From: Hallella bergensis DSM 17361
GTDB taxonomy: Bacteria; Bacteroidota; Bacteroidia; Bacteroidales; Bacteroidaceae
Assembly (NCBI RefSeq): GCF_000160535.1
Contig: NZ_GG704783.1
Coordinates: 89,486-153,485, forward strand
DNA: 64,000 nucleotides
Direction: 5' to 3'
Below, piece by piece: positions 7,162-30,768 of the stretch. Every line of letters begins with the position of its first letter. Within the stretch, counting starts at the first letter, position 1. A program made the translations under genes and the position numbers. The notes below the pieces were generated by a model. That model made no database searches, was not told the origin of the DNA, and worked only from the letters and a program-made list of their open reading frames with translations.

Positions 7162-10100
7162 AGTTTATCCTTTATTAACCTGTTCATGCTGTTTATATTT
7201 TCATCTATCTGCGTGAGACACTTTGCCGAGACACCAGTATTTTCGTTTATCTCTTTTAATTCCATGTATGAGTTGGCAAGGATAGTCCTCGTCTCGTCGG
7301 CTATTGAAACAGTGTCTTTTCCTATCAAAGAGATACCAGAGAGTGACAAATCAATGGAGCTTAGCTTCTGCGACAGTAAAATATCCTTTATTTGGTCTCT
7401 TGATATGTTTCCTGCTGTGATAAGTGCAATAAGGTTTGTAGCCTGCTCGTAGGATATTTGCGACAATCCATTTGTGGTGGCTTTCTGGTCTATGGATACA
7501 CCAGTATAGCCTACACTCTTGGCAATGTTGTCACGCATAACTGCGAGTTCGTCACGTTTGGCATTCCATTCCTCTGCATAGCTATTCCAATCCGTTTGAG
7601 ACATAGTGCCACCCTTGACTTTGTTTGCCCACTTCTCCTGAAACTGTTTTAACCAACTGTCGAACTCGTCATTCAGTACGTTAGTGTTGATTAGGGATTT
7701 AAACAACATATTCTCAAACGCTTTGCTGAAATCACTTGCGTCGGAATCCATATCCATTAATGTATCAAGGAAACTATCCCTTAAACTACTGAATGATGTT
7801 TGCGTGAGGTTATTTTGTATCTGCTCTGTCAGTTCTGCGGCCTTTCCTGCTTGATCCACAACATCATCCCAATACTTGGACTTGTCATATTTACCAACAG
7901 TGGTAATGTAGTTCCACAGATCTGGAGCAAAGTCCTTAATAGCCTTGAGTTGTTCAGGGGTGAGATTGTAAATGGACTTCAAGCCGGATATGGTAGACAT
8001 ATCTACACCAGCTGCCTTAAATGCAAGTTGAGCGTCCCTGTTATAAGAAGCTATCTTCCTGTCGTCAGCATATTTAGCGTTAGAGTGATGGCTTCCGTGA
8101 TATCCCATTTGCATCTTTAGAATCTCCATCTGATTCTTATTGATTTCCTCCTGCGCTTTCAACGCCGTATTGTAAGCATTTACAGCCTTGGCACCTGCCG
8201 AGCTGCCTATCATTTTGGAAAGGTTATCTATGCGAGAGGCAAGAACTTCGTTCGACTTAGTTAATCGTTCTGTAGTCTCAGCTACCCGTTTTCGGTTTCC
8301 CTCGCCGATACCCAATGCGGAGCCAAAGGATTTGATGGCAGAGACGCTATTAAGAACAGCGCCGACATAATTACCAGTTGCGAAGTCAGCAGCCGCTCCT
8401 GCTGCACTATTAACTCCGTCAAGCCCTTTTGCTATTTTATCGCCTGCCTTGCCAAGACCGACAGAATCTAATAAATCTGGTATTTGGTCAATACCTTTTT
8501 TATCAATGAACTCTTGTACACCGCTGAACCAGTCGGAAACCGCTTGGGCTTGCTTTCGCTTTGCAGCGTCTTCTGCCTGCTTAGCCTTGTTCGTTGCATT
8601 GGCCGTTTTCTTCCTTGCCTCTGTGAGTTTCCCCTCTGCAACTGCCAGCTTTTGCAGGAGCGGAACCAGGTCCTTAAACTTTTCGTCCGCGAGGTCAATC
8701 TTTCCGTTTAAGGAGGCGGTGGAAATATCTTTTATATCAAGATTTACGCCTTTTGATGCGAGTTCTTTTTGAACATTTGATTGAGCAGAAAATACATCAA
8801 GATTAGCCTTAACTTCCTCACTTCTTGCAATATTTAATCTTTCCTGTGCATCAGCTGCTTCTTTTAGCAATCTGTTGTGCTCACGAGTTCTTTCTCCGAT
8901 GAAATCCCAAATACCCTGCTGCTTTCCAAGTTCATCGTCAATAGTATTTATTTTATCGGAGATAACCTGCATCTGGTCAATAGGAAGGTCTCCCGTGTTG
9001 AGCAAATCCTGTAATTGTTTACGCAAACCTTGTAGGTATTGCTTGGTATGCCCCTGTAAATCAGAAAATACGCCATTCCAGTCGATAGAACTTTGCAAGT
9101 CGTCATTCTTTATTTTTTCTATCTCCTTATCACGTTGCATTTCAAGAATAGCCTTTTCACCGACAGAACTTGCCTTTCGGATTCTGTCTTCATATTCCTG
9201 TGTAATAGCGAGTTTCTTTTCCTCAAACGTACCATACTCCTTCAGGTAGCCATTGAGGGATTCTGTCTGCTTCCTTTGGTACTCCTTATCTTCGTTGGCG
9301 TGCTTCTTGAGGGTGTCGGAACGCATCTTGTCGAATTTGTCCTGCTCATCCTGTGTCAGCGTTACAGATGATGCGTTGAACTTCTTCCCTTTGTTCTTTG
9401 GGTCTGCCTCGAATATCTGCTTGGCGTCACTGATTTTCTTTTGCAAGAAGTCACGTTTGTACTTTTCCAAGTCGTCAAGCTCTTTCTTATGGTTGAGTTC
9501 TCGCTGCTTCTTTTCTTTCTCATAACCATTTTGCAAGGAATCTATGTACGCCTGTGATGATTTATCAGCAAGTTCTCTCTCTGCGTCTGAACGCTCACGG
9601 GCGAGTTTGTCGTAGTCTATTTGTTTGGAAGTAACATTATTCTTATTGTTTTCTACTTTTCTTTTTGGGCTTTCAATTTTGTTTGTCGACTTAGTATTTC
9701 CCTCTATTAATTTATTGAATTTATCATCTGAAATCTCATATTTATCTTTGTAATCAGATATAACCTTATCGAATGCAGCTTTCGAGCTATATATATCCTC
9801 ACGCAGGTCATCAACACTCGCTCTGAAATCAACAATTCCATCTTTTGCATTTTTCCCCCATCTTATATCCCAAAATGATGTTTTTTGAAGTTTACCTATA
9901 TCACCAACACTTAAACTTCCTTTTTTCCCGAGAATTGTTTCCCTATAAAGATTGTGGTAAAGTCTTGAGCCTTCATCTTCGCCATATTTCTTTTTTAACG
10001 AAGAATAAGCTTTTTCAAGTTTTGAAGAAACGGTCTTGTCATAATTAGAAAGTTCTTGGTCATAAAAAGCTTTAAGTCCCCTTGCTCCAATAGAGCGTTT

Positions 10101-18898: not shown

Positions 18899-20170
18899 TT
18901 ATCTGGCGAACGCTGCTGCGATGTCGCCCTTTGGTTTTTGTATCTTACCTAAAAGTGTTGCTAAAACCCAGTAGCGAGTAGCATCAATTCCGTGATTCCA
19001 TGCGTCTATCGGTTGGTTGATATAGTTTCCGTCCTTGTCTTTGTCCCAAACATAATTCAGAAACTCTTTTCTAAGATTGTACGACCTTTCGGTGACAAAG
19101 ATATTAAGTGACTTCATTTTGTCTATTCCTGCGATGATTGAGCCTGCGCCCTTTTCAACAGGGTATATCTTTATACCTCCGTTATGTATTTCTTGCACAA
19201 GTCGTGGGTCTGCGCTGTCTGAAAAGACTTTCATCTCATATCTGTGCAAAGCCTTAATTAGGTCGGAAGAGAGCATACTTGTCCGATAAAACAACTCGTC
19301 AACATAAAGGTTGTCGTCTATCATTCCGCACATCATGGCAGCACTCACATCGTTCGTATAGCCAAAATCAAGACCGATTGCCACTTTTTTGCACCACTTC
19401 GGAAACTCCTTAACGACACCGATATGCTTGAATACTGCACCCTCTGCAACGTCTGCCCACCTACCCATGACGGTGTGAGCATACTTTTCGGGGTTGTTGG
19501 CTTTCATGTCTTCCACCTCGTTGATAAACTCCTGCGATAAATTCTCAAGGTTATCCAAGTAGGTGGTATGGATGTGCAACACATTAGGATGGGTGCTTAT
19601 CTGGACAGGAACGCCGTCATACATCACCTCCTTATGCGTGTTTTCTATGAAACGTTTGTAAACCCAGTGGTTGTTGTCCGTTGGATTCATAACGATGATG
19701 ATGCGGTTCTGTATTCCTTTTTGGCGTATGGAGAGCATAATGGTCTCGAATTCTTTCTCCGAAACCCATTCCTCTGCCTCGTCTACAACAAAGGTGGTAA
19801 TTCCGTGAATGGACTTTAACTTTGCCGTCTGGTTGCCAGAACTTGTCTTGAGTCCTCGAAACATCACAGTACTGCCAGTCATTCGGTTGGTCACATCGGA
19901 ACGGGTGGAACGGAAATACTTTTGTGTGCCGTCCAATTCAGCCTTTTCCAGGAATTCAGGGATAATGGAAATATTGGCGGAAACCATTGTGTAGCGGGTA
20001 TAAAGAATCTGGTGCACGATCTTATCTATTGGTGTCATCTCAAACGTCAGGCGTTCAAGGAATGAAGACACAAAATGTGACTTACCACTGGCACGCCCAC
20101 CTGTAATAAGGATGATGAACTTATCCTTGTTGGAGTATATAGGGTAGTAGACCTTATGCGTCTTTATCAT
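18899..20170 (-). CDS. terL: Terminase large subunit, 423 aa
   Basis: Motor ATPase and nuclease that packages DNA into the prohead. The Walker A loop is TGGRASGKS (about residues 24-32). Walker B with catalytic acid is FVVDEAEEW (about 131-139), and the coupling motif is VMNPTDN (about 160-166). The C-terminal RNase H-like nuclease starts with GLDFGYTNDVSA (about 262-273), whose first Asp is the expected metal ligand, with further acids at SDSADPRLV. Size and motifs fit the Terminase_3/PBSX family. It overlaps the small subunit gene by 17 bp. Confidence 0.95.
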   Translation of the reverse strand: MIKTHKVYYPIYSNKDKFIILITGGRASGKSHFVSSFLERLTFEMTPIDKIVHQILYTRYTMVSANISIIPEFLEKAELDGTQKYFRSTRSDVTNRMTGSTVMFRGLKTSSGNQTAKLKSIHGITTFVVDEAEEWVSEKEFETIMLSIRQKGIQNRIIIVMNPTDNNHWVYKRFIENTHKEVMYDGVPVQISTHPNVLHIHTTYLDNLENLSQEFINEVEDMKANNPEKYAHTVMGRWADVAEGAVFKHIGVVKEFPKWCKKVAIGLDFGYTNDVSAAMMCGMIDDNLYVDELFYRTSMLSSDLIKALHRYEMKVFSDSADPRLVQEIHNGGIKIYPVEKGAGSIIAGIDKMKSLNIFVTERSYNLRKEFLNYVWDKDKDGNYINQPIDAWNHGIDATRYWVLATLLGKIQKPKGDIAAAFAR

Positions 20171-20696
20171 CGCTCACCTCCTTTTCTATCCACTTGCCAA
20201 TATCTATTCCATGGGTGATGTCCGTCGGAATATCGCTGTTTTCCTCCGCCTCCAGCTTCCCACTCTCTATACTTCGGTACATCTGCGAATGGTGTCTTAA
20301 CCACATCTGCAAGGCATTGAGGTTGGGAGGGAGCTTGTGGACGGTTATCCTTTGCTCGTCCTGTATTTTGTCGCCTATCTTGTCAAAGGTGATGTCCTGT
20401 GCCTGTACTTTTCCAAGCCCCATTTCGAGTACCATCCTCCACACTTCAGGCTCTACACTCGCACGGGCGCGCGATAATACGTTGTTTATTTGTTCACTTC
20501 TTCTTTCGTTTTCCTCTTTCGACCATTGAGGGTAGCACCCACTTTTCATTGCGGAGAAAACGCTGGACTCCAAATCGATATCCTTTGCTATGACCTTATC
20601 CCAAATGATATGATTCTCCTGCATCTGCCTATCCGCACTCTCCCTGATGCGCTGGTAGAAGTAATCGCTGTCGTAATCATATTTTGGTTTTGCCAT
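20154..20696 (-). CDS. terS: Terminase small subunit, 180 aa
   Basis: Position directly before and overlapping terL, plus size, identify the DNA-recognition subunit. The protein is helical with charged segments (SKEENERRSEQINNVLSRARASVEPEVWRMVLEMGLGKVQAQDI), and its middle may form the oligomerisation coiled coil. A C-terminal acidic tail (TDITHGIDIGKWIEKEVSDDKDA) probably contacts terL. The DNA-binding helix-turn-helix is not obvious by eye. The start is ATG at 20696; upstream lies a plus-strand small RNA. Confidence 0.78.
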   Translation of the reverse strand: MAKPKYDYDSDYFYQRIRESADRQMQENHIIWDKVIAKDIDLESSVFSAMKSGCYPQWSKEENERRSEQINNVLSRARASVEPEVWRMVLEMGLGKVQAQDITFDKIGDKIQDEQRITVHKLPPNLNALQMWLRHHSQMYRSIESGKLEAEENSDIPTDITHGIDIGKWIEKEVSDDKDA

Positions 20697-20714: not shown

Positions 20715-20746
20715 TTTGTTATTATCGAATGTTTCGTTTATATTTG
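20715..20746 (+). promoter_or_regulatory. Consensus Bacteroidetes promoter for the 20748-20850 RNA
   Basis: TTTG at 20715-20718 and TATATTTG at 20739-20746, separated by exactly 20 bp, match the TTTG/TAnnTTTG consensus. Start of transcription is expected at about 20750-20753. No protein gene follows on this strand. Confidence 0.75.
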
Positions 20747-20747
20747 T

Positions 20748-20850
20748 AGTGTAAAATTCAGCATGGTAGAGACATGATAGTTTGGAACAGAGGAGGCGAA
20801 AGCCTTATGAGGGTGTCGATAGCCCCGCCATGCTGAGTTTTATACTTTTG
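20748..20850 (+). ncRNA. Candidate structured small RNA in prophage
   Basis: GTGTAAAATTCAGCATGG (20749-20766) pairs with CCATGCTGAGTTTTATAC (20828-20845), an 18-bp closing stem containing two G-U wobbles. Both wobbles would become A-C mismatches on the other strand, so the RNA is plus-strand. Inside are AGGC-GAAA-GCCT (20794-20805, GNRA loop), GACA/TGTC (20771-20774 with 20814-20817) and GGG/CCC options, giving a branched core. It lies between the ParB-like and small terminase genes, antisense in direction to all neighbours, and has its own promoter. No Rfam family was recognised; hammerhead, pistol, hatchet and SRP signatures are absent. Confidence 0.65.
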
Positions 20851-20888
20851 AGTATTTTCTTAACTTAAATTCCTTTGCATCATATTTA

Positions 20889-21683
20889 TTATTCTCCAAA
20901 TTCTATTTTATGTGCGAACTCTTCTCCGTCCACATATTTATCTTCCTCCGTATATCCAAACTCTGCCATAAAACGTATTCTCGCTTCTGGAGTAGGGAAA
21001 GACAATACGACATAACTCAATGCTCCTCCATCTGAAGATTTCTGATTATTAATTCTGTCTTTAATCTTCTTTATTTCATTATGCCGCTTAATTTGGTTCT
21101 CTGGAGTGTCCTCGTAGAAGTTAACACTCCTGTCTGTCTTTCTATCCTCCTCCCCATCTTTTGAAGTGAATGCAAGATTTTGAAGATTGTTATTTTCTGC
21201 CGTTTCGGATTCATCCCAAGACAAGTCTGATATATCGGTTTCTTCAATGTCACCTACTCCAAGCATCTGCAAATCGAATTCATCAAGACCCGCGTTAGAG
21301 AAGTCAATATCCGACAACATTGTTTCCAGCATATCAGTATCAAATTCTCCCTGAACGCTACGGTTGTTCATGAAAATATTCTGTTCCTTTTCCGTCTTCT
21401 CGTCCAGTTCAACAACCTCAACCCTTATTTCATAGTCATTACGTCCGTCCTCATATTTGTTTACGTCATCCATGACAGACACACGCTGATGTCCACTGAC
21501 AAGATTCCCAGTCGTCTTATTCCAAACAATTCCTCCAAGAAGTCCGATACGCTTTAAATTCGCTTTTAATTGCATCCTTGCTTCATTAGATATTTTTCTT
21601 GGATTGTAGTGAGCAAAGTTTATCTCGCTACGATTAATCGTTATTTGCTGCGGTTGTTTTATTTTGTTCTCTTTCATAATCAA
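20889..21683 (-). CDS. ParB/sulfiredoxin-fold protein, IbrB-like, 264 aa
   Basis: The N-terminal half is a ParB-N/Srx domain: 'INFAHYNPRKIS' is followed by 'LKRIGLLGGIVWNKTTGNLVSGHQRVSVM', with the GHQR motif at about residues 69-72. The C-terminal part is acidic. In phages this domain often sits beside a PAPS-reductase-like gene, as in the IbrA/IbrB pair; here the two genes overlap by 50 bp (21634-21683), strong coupling. IbrAB were described as regulators of immunoglobulin-binding protein expression in E. coli; the biochemical reaction is not settled. In ParB-like proteins the GxxR box binds CTP/ATP; whether this one does is inference. An alternative start is ATG at 21677. Confidence 0.8.
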   Translation of the reverse strand: MIMKENKIKQPQQITINRSEINFAHYNPRKISNEARMQLKANLKRIGLLGGIVWNKTTGNLVSGHQRVSVMDDVNKYEDGRNDYEIRVEVVELDEKTEKEQNIFMNNRSVQGEFDTDMLETMLSDIDFSNAGLDEFDLQMLGVGDIEETDISDLSWDESETAENNNLQNLAFTSKDGEEDRKTDRSVNFYEDTPENQIKRHNEIKKIKDRINNQKSSDGGALSYVVLSFPTPEARIRFMAEFGYTEEDKYVDGEEFAHKIEFGE

Positions 21684-22909: not shown

Positions 22910-22968
22910 TTTCTTTTTCTGTAAAATTACTTAAAGTATTTGAGATTACCAACATCTTTGCATCTTAG

Positions 22969-23041
22969 TTGCGGGGGTGCGAATCGAACGCACGACCTTC
23001 GCCAAGTCAAAGCGACGAGCTTCCCACTGCTCTACCCCGCG
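22969..23041 (-). tRNA. tRNA-Val (anticodon GAC), prophage-encoded
   Basis: On the minus strand the cloverleaf folds as acceptor CGCGGGG/CCCCGCA (first pair mismatched), D-stem GAGC/GCTC, anticodon stem TCGCT/GGCGA with loop TTGACTT (anticodon GAC), and T-arm GTGCG-TTCGATT-CGCAC. No CCA is encoded. It has its own promoter, and no protein gene overlaps it. The imperfect first acceptor pair leaves some doubt about full function. Confidence 0.75.
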
Positions 23042-24651: not shown

Positions 24652-24818
24652 ATTTGAATATTTTGTTTATATTTGGGTGGTGTGGTCAGGCACCACCCTT
24701 TCTTTTTATAAAACAGGGGCAAAAACTAAGAAGTCTTGTTGTGGTATTCAGACCTCGAAGTTAATGCCCCTTTAAATTTCTTCTCTCTACCGCCGAATAC
24801 CACTAAGGCGGGTTGTTT
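24652..24818 (-). promoter_or_regulatory. Structured 5' leader of the antirepressor mRNA (loop-loop kissing candidate)
   Basis: Expected transcription start is about 24816, so the leader is about 165 nt. Hairpin B (24790-24794/24807-24811, CCGCC/GGCGG) has a 12-nt loop whose GAATACCAC is complementary to GTGGTATTC (24741-24749). The latter sits in the apical loop of hairpin A, formed by GGGGCA/TGCCCC (24716-24721/24765-24770), AACT/AGTT (24724-24727/24759-24762) and GTCT/AGAC (24733-24736/24750-24753). Hairpin C (GGGTGGTG/CACCACCC, 24675-24682/24691-24698) lies 24 nt before the ATG. The set suggests control by RNA folding; the ligand or partner is unknown. Confidence 0.6.
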
Positions 24819-24822
24819 ATTG

Positions 24823-24869
24823 CAAAATTAGCCTTTGCCCTAACAGGTGCCAAATTTCACTTAGATAAA
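24823..24869 (-). promoter_or_regulatory. Antirepressor promoter with upstream CTTAGATAAA box
   Basis: Minus-strand -7 box TAATTTTG (24823-24830) and TTTG (24851-24854) are 20 bp apart. Directly upstream is TTTCACTTAGATAAA (plus-strand reading), which is also found at the promoter of the 27949-28353 gene. Confidence 0.75.
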
Positions 24870-24984: not shown

Positions 24985-25004
24985 GTTATTTCATTTTAGT
25001 TTGT

Positions 25005-25105
25005 TACCTTTGTCGTGATTATTGTGCGTACGCTGTAGTGCGCCATAGTCGTATGAAAAATTGTTTATACGGTGGGCAGTGCGTGAGCATCGCCCACCAT
25101 TTTAT
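25005..25105 (+). ncRNA. Candidate plus-strand small RNA
   Basis: A -7 box TACCTTTG (25005-25012) precedes about 90 nt with hairpins. The main one is GGTGGGC/GCCCACC (25071-25077/25092-25098) capped by GTGC-GTGA-GCAT with a GNRA loop. One G-U pair (25079-25090) fits only plus-strand RNA. A smaller stem GTAT/ATAC (25051-25054/25067-25070) precedes it. The -33 box is poor and the terminal U tract short (ATTTTAT), so confidence is limited. Confidence 0.4.
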
Positions 25106-25106
25106 A

Positions 25107-25439
25107 TCATGCCAGCCTTAAAAGGTTTGCAATTTTGAAACACCGCCATTCGTCCTTTTCTGTATCAAAGTACACCTGTACGCTATCGTTGCGCTTGCGG
25201 TTGTCAGTGCCTGCAACAGGCGGGATCTTATCACTTGCGAGCGTGCCGTATGCCTCTCTTATCTCACCGTTTACCTTGGTGAAGTAAAACTTGACGATAC
25301 GCTTGCCCAGCTCTTTCTTTAACTTGGCATTGAGCCATGCCTGTTTCAAACCCTCGCTCATGGTGAATCCATACTTGCGAACAAATATCCACGCCATTCG
25401 CATGATGTTGCTTAACTGATTTTTGAATGTTGTTGCCAT
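25107..25439 (-). CDS. DUF2693 (SH3-like) protein, 110 aa
   Basis: The sequence matches the DUF2693 pattern: an N-terminal helix region 'SNIMRMAWIFVRKYGFTMSEGLKQAWLNAKLKKEL', then 'RIVKFYFTKVNGEIREAYGTLASDKIPPV', then 'NDSVQVYFDTEKDEWRCFKIANLL', predicted as an SH3-like barrel. The family is common in Bacteroidetes phages and conjugative elements; its function is unknown. It lies 12 bp downstream of the 75-aa early gene, so they share a transcript. The start context is ATTATACAACCATGG. Confidence 0.8.
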   Translation of the reverse strand: MATTFKNQLSNIMRMAWIFVRKYGFTMSEGLKQAWLNAKLKKELGKRIVKFYFTKVNGEIREAYGTLASDKIPPVAGTDNRKRNDSVQVYFDTEKDEWRCFKIANLLRLA

Positions 25440-29787: not shown

Positions 29788-30023
29788 ATCTATTCAGTTA
29801 ATTTTAAGTCAATATTCAGTCAATATTTTTAATCTACTTGTGTGTTTTAAAACCTACTTGTACAGTTCATGATAATAACATTAGGAGAATATAAGCTTAT
29901 GTTTTTTTGCTTCTTGCGTATCATTTTATATAAAAAAAAGAGACGGAAATCCTTTATTATTAAGAACTTCCGCCTCTTGTGTATCATCATGGACTCTAAC
30001 TGTGAATACCATGATTTTCAGTG
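29788..30023. other. Region between integrase and tRNA-Met: probable att zone
   Basis: No gene. Short direct repeats TATTCAGT (twice near 29793-29822) and CTACTTGT (twice near 29835-29860) lie beside the integrase and may be arm-binding sites. A second pair, CTTGCGTATCAT (29913-29924) and CTTGTGTATCAT (29975-29986), lies closer to the tRNA. The prophage/chromosome border is probably here. Confidence 0.35.
29930..29977 (-). terminator. Intrinsic terminator after tRNA-Met
   Basis: On the minus strand AGAG-CGGAA pairs with TTCCG-CTCT around an A/T-rich loop, followed by a run of eight T residues (29932-29939). Confidence 0.75.
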
Positions 30024-30097
30024 TGGACCAGCCTGGGCTTGAACCAGGGACCTCCAGATTATGAGTCTGTTGCTCTAACCAACTGAGCTACAAGTCC
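30024..30097 (-). tRNA. tRNA-Met (anticodon CAT)
   Basis: Cloverleaf on the minus strand: acceptor GGACTTG/CTGGTCC (one mismatch), D-arm GCTC...GAGC with AGTTGGTTA loop, anticodon loop CTCATAA, T-arm CCTGG-TTCAAGC-CCAGG, discriminator A. No CCA is encoded. It could also be the lysidine-modified tRNA-Ile2, which has the same gene anticodon. Its 3' end faces the prophage and is the likely integration target. Confidence 0.9.
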
Positions 30098-30668: not shown

Positions 30669-30696
30669 CTTAAATTTTTTCTTTTTATTTCTGTTG

Positions 30697-30768
30697 TAGT
30701 CGGTACGGGACTCGAACCCGTGTGGCAAGAATGAAAATCTTGAATCCTAACCTCTAGATGAACCGACC
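30697..30768 (-). tRNA. tRNA-Glu (anticodon TTC)
   Basis: Acceptor GGTCGGT/ACCGACT, anticodon stem CAAGA/TCTTG with loop TTTTCAT (anticodon TTC), and a T-arm with loop TTCGAGT. Minus strand, directly before rpsT. Confidence 0.93.

Follow-up and report, generated by a model that had tools for sequence, protein, structure and literature searches.

A predicted structured RNA gene beside terS in a Prevotella-group prophage and its possible kinship with tRNA-like RNAs

Between the terminase small-subunit gene (terS) and a ParB-like gene of a prophage in the 64-kb window, the whole stretch of DNA analysed here, a promoter match points away from terS and against the neighbouring genes, which raises the question of what, if anything, is made from it. 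A first-pass annotation had proposed that a promoter of its own drives a small structured RNA here; the support for this in the sequence is good, and we regard the locus as probably a genuine small RNA (sRNA) gene. TerL (PF04466, PF17288), TerS, an SPP1-like portal (PF05133), the ParB-like protein and a PAPS-reductase-domain protein are encoded on the opposite strand. As described there, the RNA lies beside the terminase genes and antisense to the late operon; it is placed just upstream of terS. Our best reading, with a probability of about 0.4, is that of an accessory, free-standing sRNA gene that makes a tRNA mimic.

Table 1. Coordinates of the candidate RNA gene, its predicted parts and its neighbours (window positions unless a locus is named)
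Feature	Position	Strand	Remarks
TerS, terminase small subunit	20154..20696	-	phrog_309, E 5e-16
Promoter	20715..20746	+	TTTG (-33 box) 20715-20718, 20-nt spacer, TATATTTG (-7 box) 20739-20746
170-bp segment missing in a relative	20724..20893		TTATT direct repeats 20719-20723, 20889-20893
Structured RNA, predicted extent	about 20748..20846	+	fold z -6.16; R3 match at 20758-20842
Closing stem, 5' arm (acceptor-like)	20748..20767	+	20-bp stem in predicted fold
Hairpin 1, 4 bp, 6-nt loop AUGAUA	20770..20783	+	placed by R3 as D-arm; weak
Hairpin 2, GAGGC-GAAA-GCCUU	20793..20806	+	anticodon-arm position; no anticodon loop
Hairpin 3, GGGU-GUCGAUA-GCCC	20811..20825	+	T-arm-like; 7-nt NUCRANN loop beside closing stem
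Closing stem, 3' arm	20827..20846	+	followed by U-rich tail
ParB-like protein	20889..21683	-	phrog_9353, E 1e-93; phrog_620, E 1.3e-17
Sense-strand tRNA-like RNA	L049 4227-4302; L050 3338-3412	terS strand	upstream of terS

Promoter and predicted fold

The promoter fits the Bacteroidota consensus of a -33 TTTG and a -7 TAnnTTTG box, as set out in PMC7366714, and both boxes, with their 20-bp spacing, lie where they had originally been placed. The strict pattern TTTG-N18..21-TAnnTTTG occurs at eight sites in the 64-kb window, including the promoter of the RNA, and the tRNA genes at 30023-30097 and 30696-30768 are each preceded by one of the other sites.

The 106-nt stretch that contains the RNA has a minimum free energy (MFE) of -41.7 kcal/mol (z -6.16), which none of 200 shuffles equalled. 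For the exact 99 nt, the MFE is -41.2 kcal/mol on the plus strand vs. -26.7 kcal/mol on the minus strand, in keeping with the plus-strand orientation assigned earlier. Among 56 distinct strict-promoter sites of the window and its relatives (mean z -0.82), the window RNA has the lowest value (-6.34). In a plain scan of 100-nt segments (step 10, GC-corrected MFE), the highest listed segment that covers the RNA, shifted from it by 3 nt, ranks only 19th among the 26 rows listed. The 18-bp stem previously drawn at 20749-20766/20828-20845 is real and grows to 20 contiguous pairs, three of them G-U. The GNRA hairpin described for the core also stands (GAAA loop at 20798-20801), but the three-way junction does not, as the closing stem and three hairpins make a four-way one. 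No intrinsic-terminator-like site was found after the RNA, only a U-rich tail, and a 20-codon ORF inside it (ATG at 20774) is unremarkable.

The terS-side site in related phages

Relatives by TerL comprised 48 viral loci, 11 genome loci and 5 of 398 genus genomes, the prophage's own included. When the region upstream of terS was compared by eye in 24 viral loci (L numbers), a promoter with a structured RNA antisense to terS was recognised in four: L039, which is the window's phage, L058, L071 and L062. RNAs of the L071 type are also present in L099 (H. shahii; L106 probably duplicates that record) and in L122. The window, L058, L071 and L106 can be aligned from the terS start to the far end of the promoter, and the alignment is lost after about +8. 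Relative to the window promoter, substitutions in L058 and L071 are confined to the spacer or the nn positions of TAnnTTTG; in L062 the boxes are present and the spacer is different. The window, L058 and L071 types each have an RNA body of their own, and the gene on the far side of the RNA is of three different kinds in the four loci.

The window RNA is single-copy in its own genome. The only other copy found (L002/L032/L039), an exact match to the core in IMG/VR, is identical across the 338 compared bases, as are TerS and TerL, and probably represents the same phage; as this type offers no pair changes, the covariation check suggested in the first-pass annotation was made on the L071-type RNAs. 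Between L071 and L099, no change occurs over 194 nt (L071 4188-4381) including the RNA body, while identity is 66-80% in 9 of the 11 bins of 50 bp into which terS was divided; instead of constraint, a recent exchange of this piece could account for the difference.

Three loci, L033, L066 and L098, represent one contig or phage of Hoylesella buccalis (TerS 87% and TerL 98% vs. the window) and lack exactly the 170-bp segment of Table 1, between the TTATT repeats; the stop codon of the ParB-like gene sits at the border of this segment. They retain TTTGTTATT, with which the promoter begins in the window, L058 and L071, and on that ground we take the RNA gene to have been lost, not the site to be ancestrally empty. 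L040 and L091 (TerL 98-99%) carry different DNA at the RNA site. Because it is absent in phages with near-identical TerL, the RNA gene is dispensable, which argues against the packaging role that the first-pass annotation had offered as one option; its other suggestion of a ribozyme-like element found no support. L121 shows another break at the site, with a broken MGEGIL ORF and no RNA. The place next to terS is possibly a hot spot at which phages carry RNA cargo.

The uncharacterised MGEGIL ORF, named for the first residues of its product (~160 aa), lies between the ParB-like gene and the RNA in L071 (3789-4286), L099 (3789-4286) and L062 (3803-4282). It has no Pfam match, and its structural model (mean pLDDT 53) no significant PDB match; a second model, of the L062 ORF, had a mean pLDDT of 39. 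A BFVD search returned one 90%-identical uncharacterised phage protein. A reading of the ORF as a BECR-type nuclease was unsupported by Pfam, Foldseek and VIA-align and was dropped, and the comparison with 6cp9 (CdiA toxin complex) gave only E 0.46 and Z 3.2. On the minus strand of L062, at 7800-7930, a strict promoter stands before a very long hairpin, its MFE being -64 over 130 nt, opposite late genes.

A tRNA-like RNA family and its possible relation to the window RNA

The RNA of L071 defines a family that includes L071, L099, L122 and L124-L131, with L132 and L139 more divergent. The L071 RNA is predicted to fold into an acceptor-like stem, a D-like arm (AUCGGUA loop), a middle hairpin, a T-arm (UUCAACU) and a GC-rich hairpin with a U tail; no anticodon is conserved in the family, and the closing stem is about 8 bp in aligned members. 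The MFE of L071 is unremarkable against shuffles in two sub-stretches, both without the 5' arm. ARAGORN leaves the L071 RNA uncalled at default and calls it at 90% of threshold (0/1000 shuffles), and calls the L122 RNA at 80% and not at 90%. In a MAFFT alignment of L071, L099 and L122, both partners are replaced in 4 of the 21 pairs, a count that 7 of 500 shuffles reach. The 14-row alignment A8 (13 distinct rows, the weak L132 and L049/L096 included) has 14 of 21 pairs so changed and 96.9% of cells paired (0/500 shuffles), with far lower values in slid controls; A8 was fitted to the model, and its result therefore leans toward it. Together these alignments indicate strong compensatory changes in RNAs of the L071/L099/L122 type and a clear structural constraint on them.

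Members also occur more widely. Model R2 had matches in 10 of the 398 genus genomes, the L099-type phage among them, and none in G000. TAnnTTTG stands just upstream of the RNA in six of the nine loci L124-L132, and the window RNA likewise has its own Bacteroidota promoter just upstream; at the RNAs of these nine loci, no Rfam cut-off was reached and ARAGORN called no tRNA. L124 and L125 keep the terS-side upstream sequence, and no terS or terL match was found in the 2.6-3.1 kb fetched. The best Rfam model for L122 was tRNA-Sec (21.4 bits vs. a cut-off of 47), and the L129 RNA had weak matches to phage tRNA regions and none to plasmids. The L071-type RNA was not taken to encode a peptide, since on inspection by eye the frame is not kept from member to member. 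L049, L050, L074 and L096 have their tRNA-like RNA in sense orientation to terS, immediately upstream of that gene; L096, with the same RNA as L049, comes from a Muribaculaceae genome. At L125 1037-1119, copies of the direct repeat GTTTGCTAATGCAAAGATACT stand on either side of a solo tRNA-like RNA, which looks as though it had been inserted or had remained after a deletion.

Does the window RNA belong with these? The motif of hairpin 3 (7-nt NUCRANN loop, 4 bp, next to the closing stem), a T-arm motif chosen after L071 was seen, arose in 4 of 20,000 interior dinucleotide shuffles of the window RNA; the corresponding test gave 38/20,000 for L071 (UUCAACU) and 13/20,000 for L062 (CUCGAAA), and the motif is absent in L058. 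Hairpins with a 7-nt NUCRANN loop on 4 bp number 28 on the two strands of the 64-kb window, so that the place and context of hairpin 3 matter. In tRNA, the D-loop GG and the T-loop UUCRA are conserved; the first base of the hairpin 3 loop GUCGAUA is G, not U, and the hairpin 1 loop has no GG.

With filters off, R3, a covariance model of the family, scored the window RNA at 21.1 bits (full model, right register; E 1.3e-5 over 401 nt, or about 0.1 when scaled by length to the whole genome), the antisense strand sharing the stem at 6.6 bits, L062 at 14.0 bits and L058 at most at 3.2 bits; the L058 RNA, with the most similar promoter, shows no tRNA-likeness. R3 acts as a general tRNA detector, with matches in 55 of 203 order genomes and scores of 15-43 bits for true tRNAs. 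At 29 of the 30 matched order-genome loci that were examined, ARAGORN found a true tRNA (tRNA-Met at 23), and five of its six matches in the own genome are tRNAs. Its training set took in L049 and L096; L050 and L074 were outside the set, being close in sequence nonetheless. R3 searches with default filters, that of the own genome included, did not report the window RNA, and R2, searched up to E 10, found nothing in the window. ARAGORN made no plus-strand call of the window RNA down to 40% of threshold and a minus-strand call at 60% and 40%. The Rfam models for tRNA and YrlA were absent at E up to 10 (cmscan), and the family core GAUGGUCGCA and GCAUAU are not recognisable in the window RNA. 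From this comparison, we put the tRNA-likeness of the window RNA at roughly even odds, and consider its membership of the L071-type family likely rather than proven.

Database searches bore on both RNA types. Rfam found two true tRNAs in the window and, at the window RNA, no family over cut-off, the best being a plant microRNA model far below cut-off (E 0.057); in Rfam 15, no family reaches cut-off at any scanned RNA of the window or sister type. Blastn of the window RNA returned no phage record and one plasmid record (41 query bases, E 0.04). Short blastn matches (E up to 1) in 167 of 199 relatives, the best of 29 bases apart from the own copy, were read as noise. The window-type model R1, run over 393 order and 398 genus genomes, matched two places beyond the own copy: in L037 nothing more than a hairpin, and in L038 (G077) a hairpin rich in repeats. 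Both were rejected as chance, although L038 has a TTTG.AACAGAGGAG stretch in common with the window and one compensatory-looking pair. A scan for the core pattern hit five other contigs, with the fold in none, and in a promoter pattern scan L087 and L089 precede an apparent tRNA gene (by eye) and L090 seems unrelated. The L058 promoter region had weak matches to 22 phage records, and both of those inspected are DNA before annotated coding genes. A limited literature search, of sources available in part, found nothing on the window RNA.

Among known systems, tRNA (RF00005) resembles the window RNA in cloverleaf order (closing stem plus three hairpins), in the 7-nt NUCRANN loop by the closing stem and in being aligned by R3. 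Unlike tRNA, the window RNA has a 20-bp closing stem, a degenerate D-arm and no anticodon, with a 5-bp stem and GAAA tetraloop in place of an anticodon arm with its 7-nt loop, and it lacks the RF00005 match and plus-strand ARAGORN call of a tRNA. With the L071-type family it has in common the phage site and alignable promoter region (L071/L099) and a predicted cloverleaf-like fold with no conserved anticodon, and it differs in its core and in a closing stem of 20 rather than ~8 bp. In the bacterial Y RNA YrlA, a long stem closes a tRNA-like module, an arrangement that the window RNA recalls. A Y RNA was nevertheless rejected: the YrlA model (RF02553) does not match the window RNA, its three matches in the host genome are all under cut-off and away from the RNA, and no TROVE/Ro60 match was found in that genome. 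The DonS-like cis-antisense RNAs of Bacteroides are near 100 nt and antisense to an operon, as is the window RNA, but they face susC homologues (PMC7366714), whereas the window RNA faces the terS leader and is strongly structured. tRNA-like sRNAs are a known kind; the window RNA, if one of them, would be new in combining the lack of an anticodon with an own promoter at a putative phage hot spot.

Proposed mechanism and competing readings

In the reading as a tRNA mimic, a Prevotella-group prophage (SPP1-like portal, Terminase_3 large subunit) would carry the RNA gene as an accessory, and a host-type promoter facing away from terS would yield an RNA of about 100 nt. This RNA would adopt a tRNA-like cloverleaf in which the acceptor-like stem is lengthened to 20 bp and the D-arm is degenerate, with an anticodon-less hairpin and a T-arm-like hairpin besides. 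We conjecture that it is expressed and that, as a stable mimic, it may engage a tRNA-handling protein as a decoy or inhibitor, rather than serve in decoding. A bolder and rather doubtful extension would place the window RNA at the extreme of a new mobile family whose members are promoter-driven tRNA mimics lacking an anticodon, found in Prevotella-group phages beside terS and also outside that context, with acceptor-like stems of ~8 to 20 bp and a role in phage-host conflict via the tRNA-handling machinery.

The main rival, which we hold to be unlikely, is a cis-antisense regulator complementary to the late mRNA between the ParB-like gene and terS, controlling terS/terL by duplex formation, RNase III cleavage or polymerase collision. 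Such an RNA could vary freely in sequence while its promoter and place are kept, as in the window, L058 and L071, and in all four loci promoter and RNA lie just upstream of terS and are directed away from it despite the three kinds of far-side gene. However, the RNA does not cover the start codon of terS, as it begins about 53 nt upstream of that codon, it folds better on the plus strand, sister-family members are also found without such a terS or terL nearby, and in L049/L096/L050/L074 a tRNA-like RNA shares the strand of terS. Similarly unlikely is a relic without present function, either the decayed remains of a tRNA gene of the phage or a neutral promoter with its hairpin, stranded by recombination at a hot spot between terS and the upstream genes. 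The lineage-specific RNA bodies, the clean absence in L033/L066/L098 and the other break in L121 speak for it, as do the tRNA-Val genes called near the terminase genes in 20 of the 39 scanned loci related by TerL, not all of which are distinct phages; yet a 20-bp stem with all plus-strand pairs kept and an intact consensus promoter would not be expected of a relic, and the sister RNAs are under clear structural constraint.

Less probable still is a trans-acting sRNA of the lysogen that pairs through single-stranded segments with mRNAs of the host or of superinfecting phages. An own promoter, this size and a U-rich tail are ordinary for Bacteroides sRNAs as described in PMC7366714, but the fold leaves few long unpaired segments, and exact complementarities to other places within the window are only 10-11 nt. 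That the RNA is the partner of a toxin-like MGEGIL ORF, in a type III toxin-antitoxin-like system or as the inhibitor of a nuclease, is suggested by their adjacency in L071, L099, L062 and L122 (ORF broken) and strikes us as very improbable. No such ORF lies beside the window RNA (tblastn found none in the window, best E 0.72), the loci L124-L132 lack it save for a 24-residue match in L126, and L121 has the broken ORF and no RNA. The ORF has no Pfam match and its model no significant PDB match, and the L071-type and L062 versions are only 22-25% identical, with a BLASTP alignment of the first 10 residues only. The least credible reading is a packaging element, whether a pRNA-like RNA or pac-site DNA: it would suit the position adjoining terS, given that the phage has an SPP1-like portal and Terminase_3, but it is at odds with the absences in L066, L040 and L091 at 98-99% TerL identity and with a host-type promoter pointing against the late operon.

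With strong covariation, promoter-like boxes before many members and none over the Rfam 15 cut-off, the sister family is a good find at one phage locus, and it is testable now, even if the window RNA is a plain sRNA. Should these RNAs prove to be tRNA mimics that take no part in decoding, they would offer a direct handle on the contest between Bacteroidota phages and their hosts over tRNA and translation, and would mark the terS side as a hot spot for phage RNA cargo.

Three other elements of the window deserve mention. ARAGORN calls a phage tRNA-Val(GAC) at 22968-23041 on the minus strand, upstream of the terminase genes. At 24660-24823, also on the minus strand, a strict promoter precedes the leader of a KilA-N/KilAC antirepressor gene; this leader is strongly structured (z -4.3), the opposite strand carries a TATATTTG box, and L033 has a similar leader (z -2.9). 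It is possibly an RNA-regulated antirepressor switch. The plus-strand stretch at 25000-25110, near the promoter-like TTACCTTTG, is structured as well (MFE -40 in 100 nt, with a GC-rich hairpin at its end) and is a possible further sRNA; the ParB-like protein of Table 1, for its part, has phrog matches and none in Pfam.
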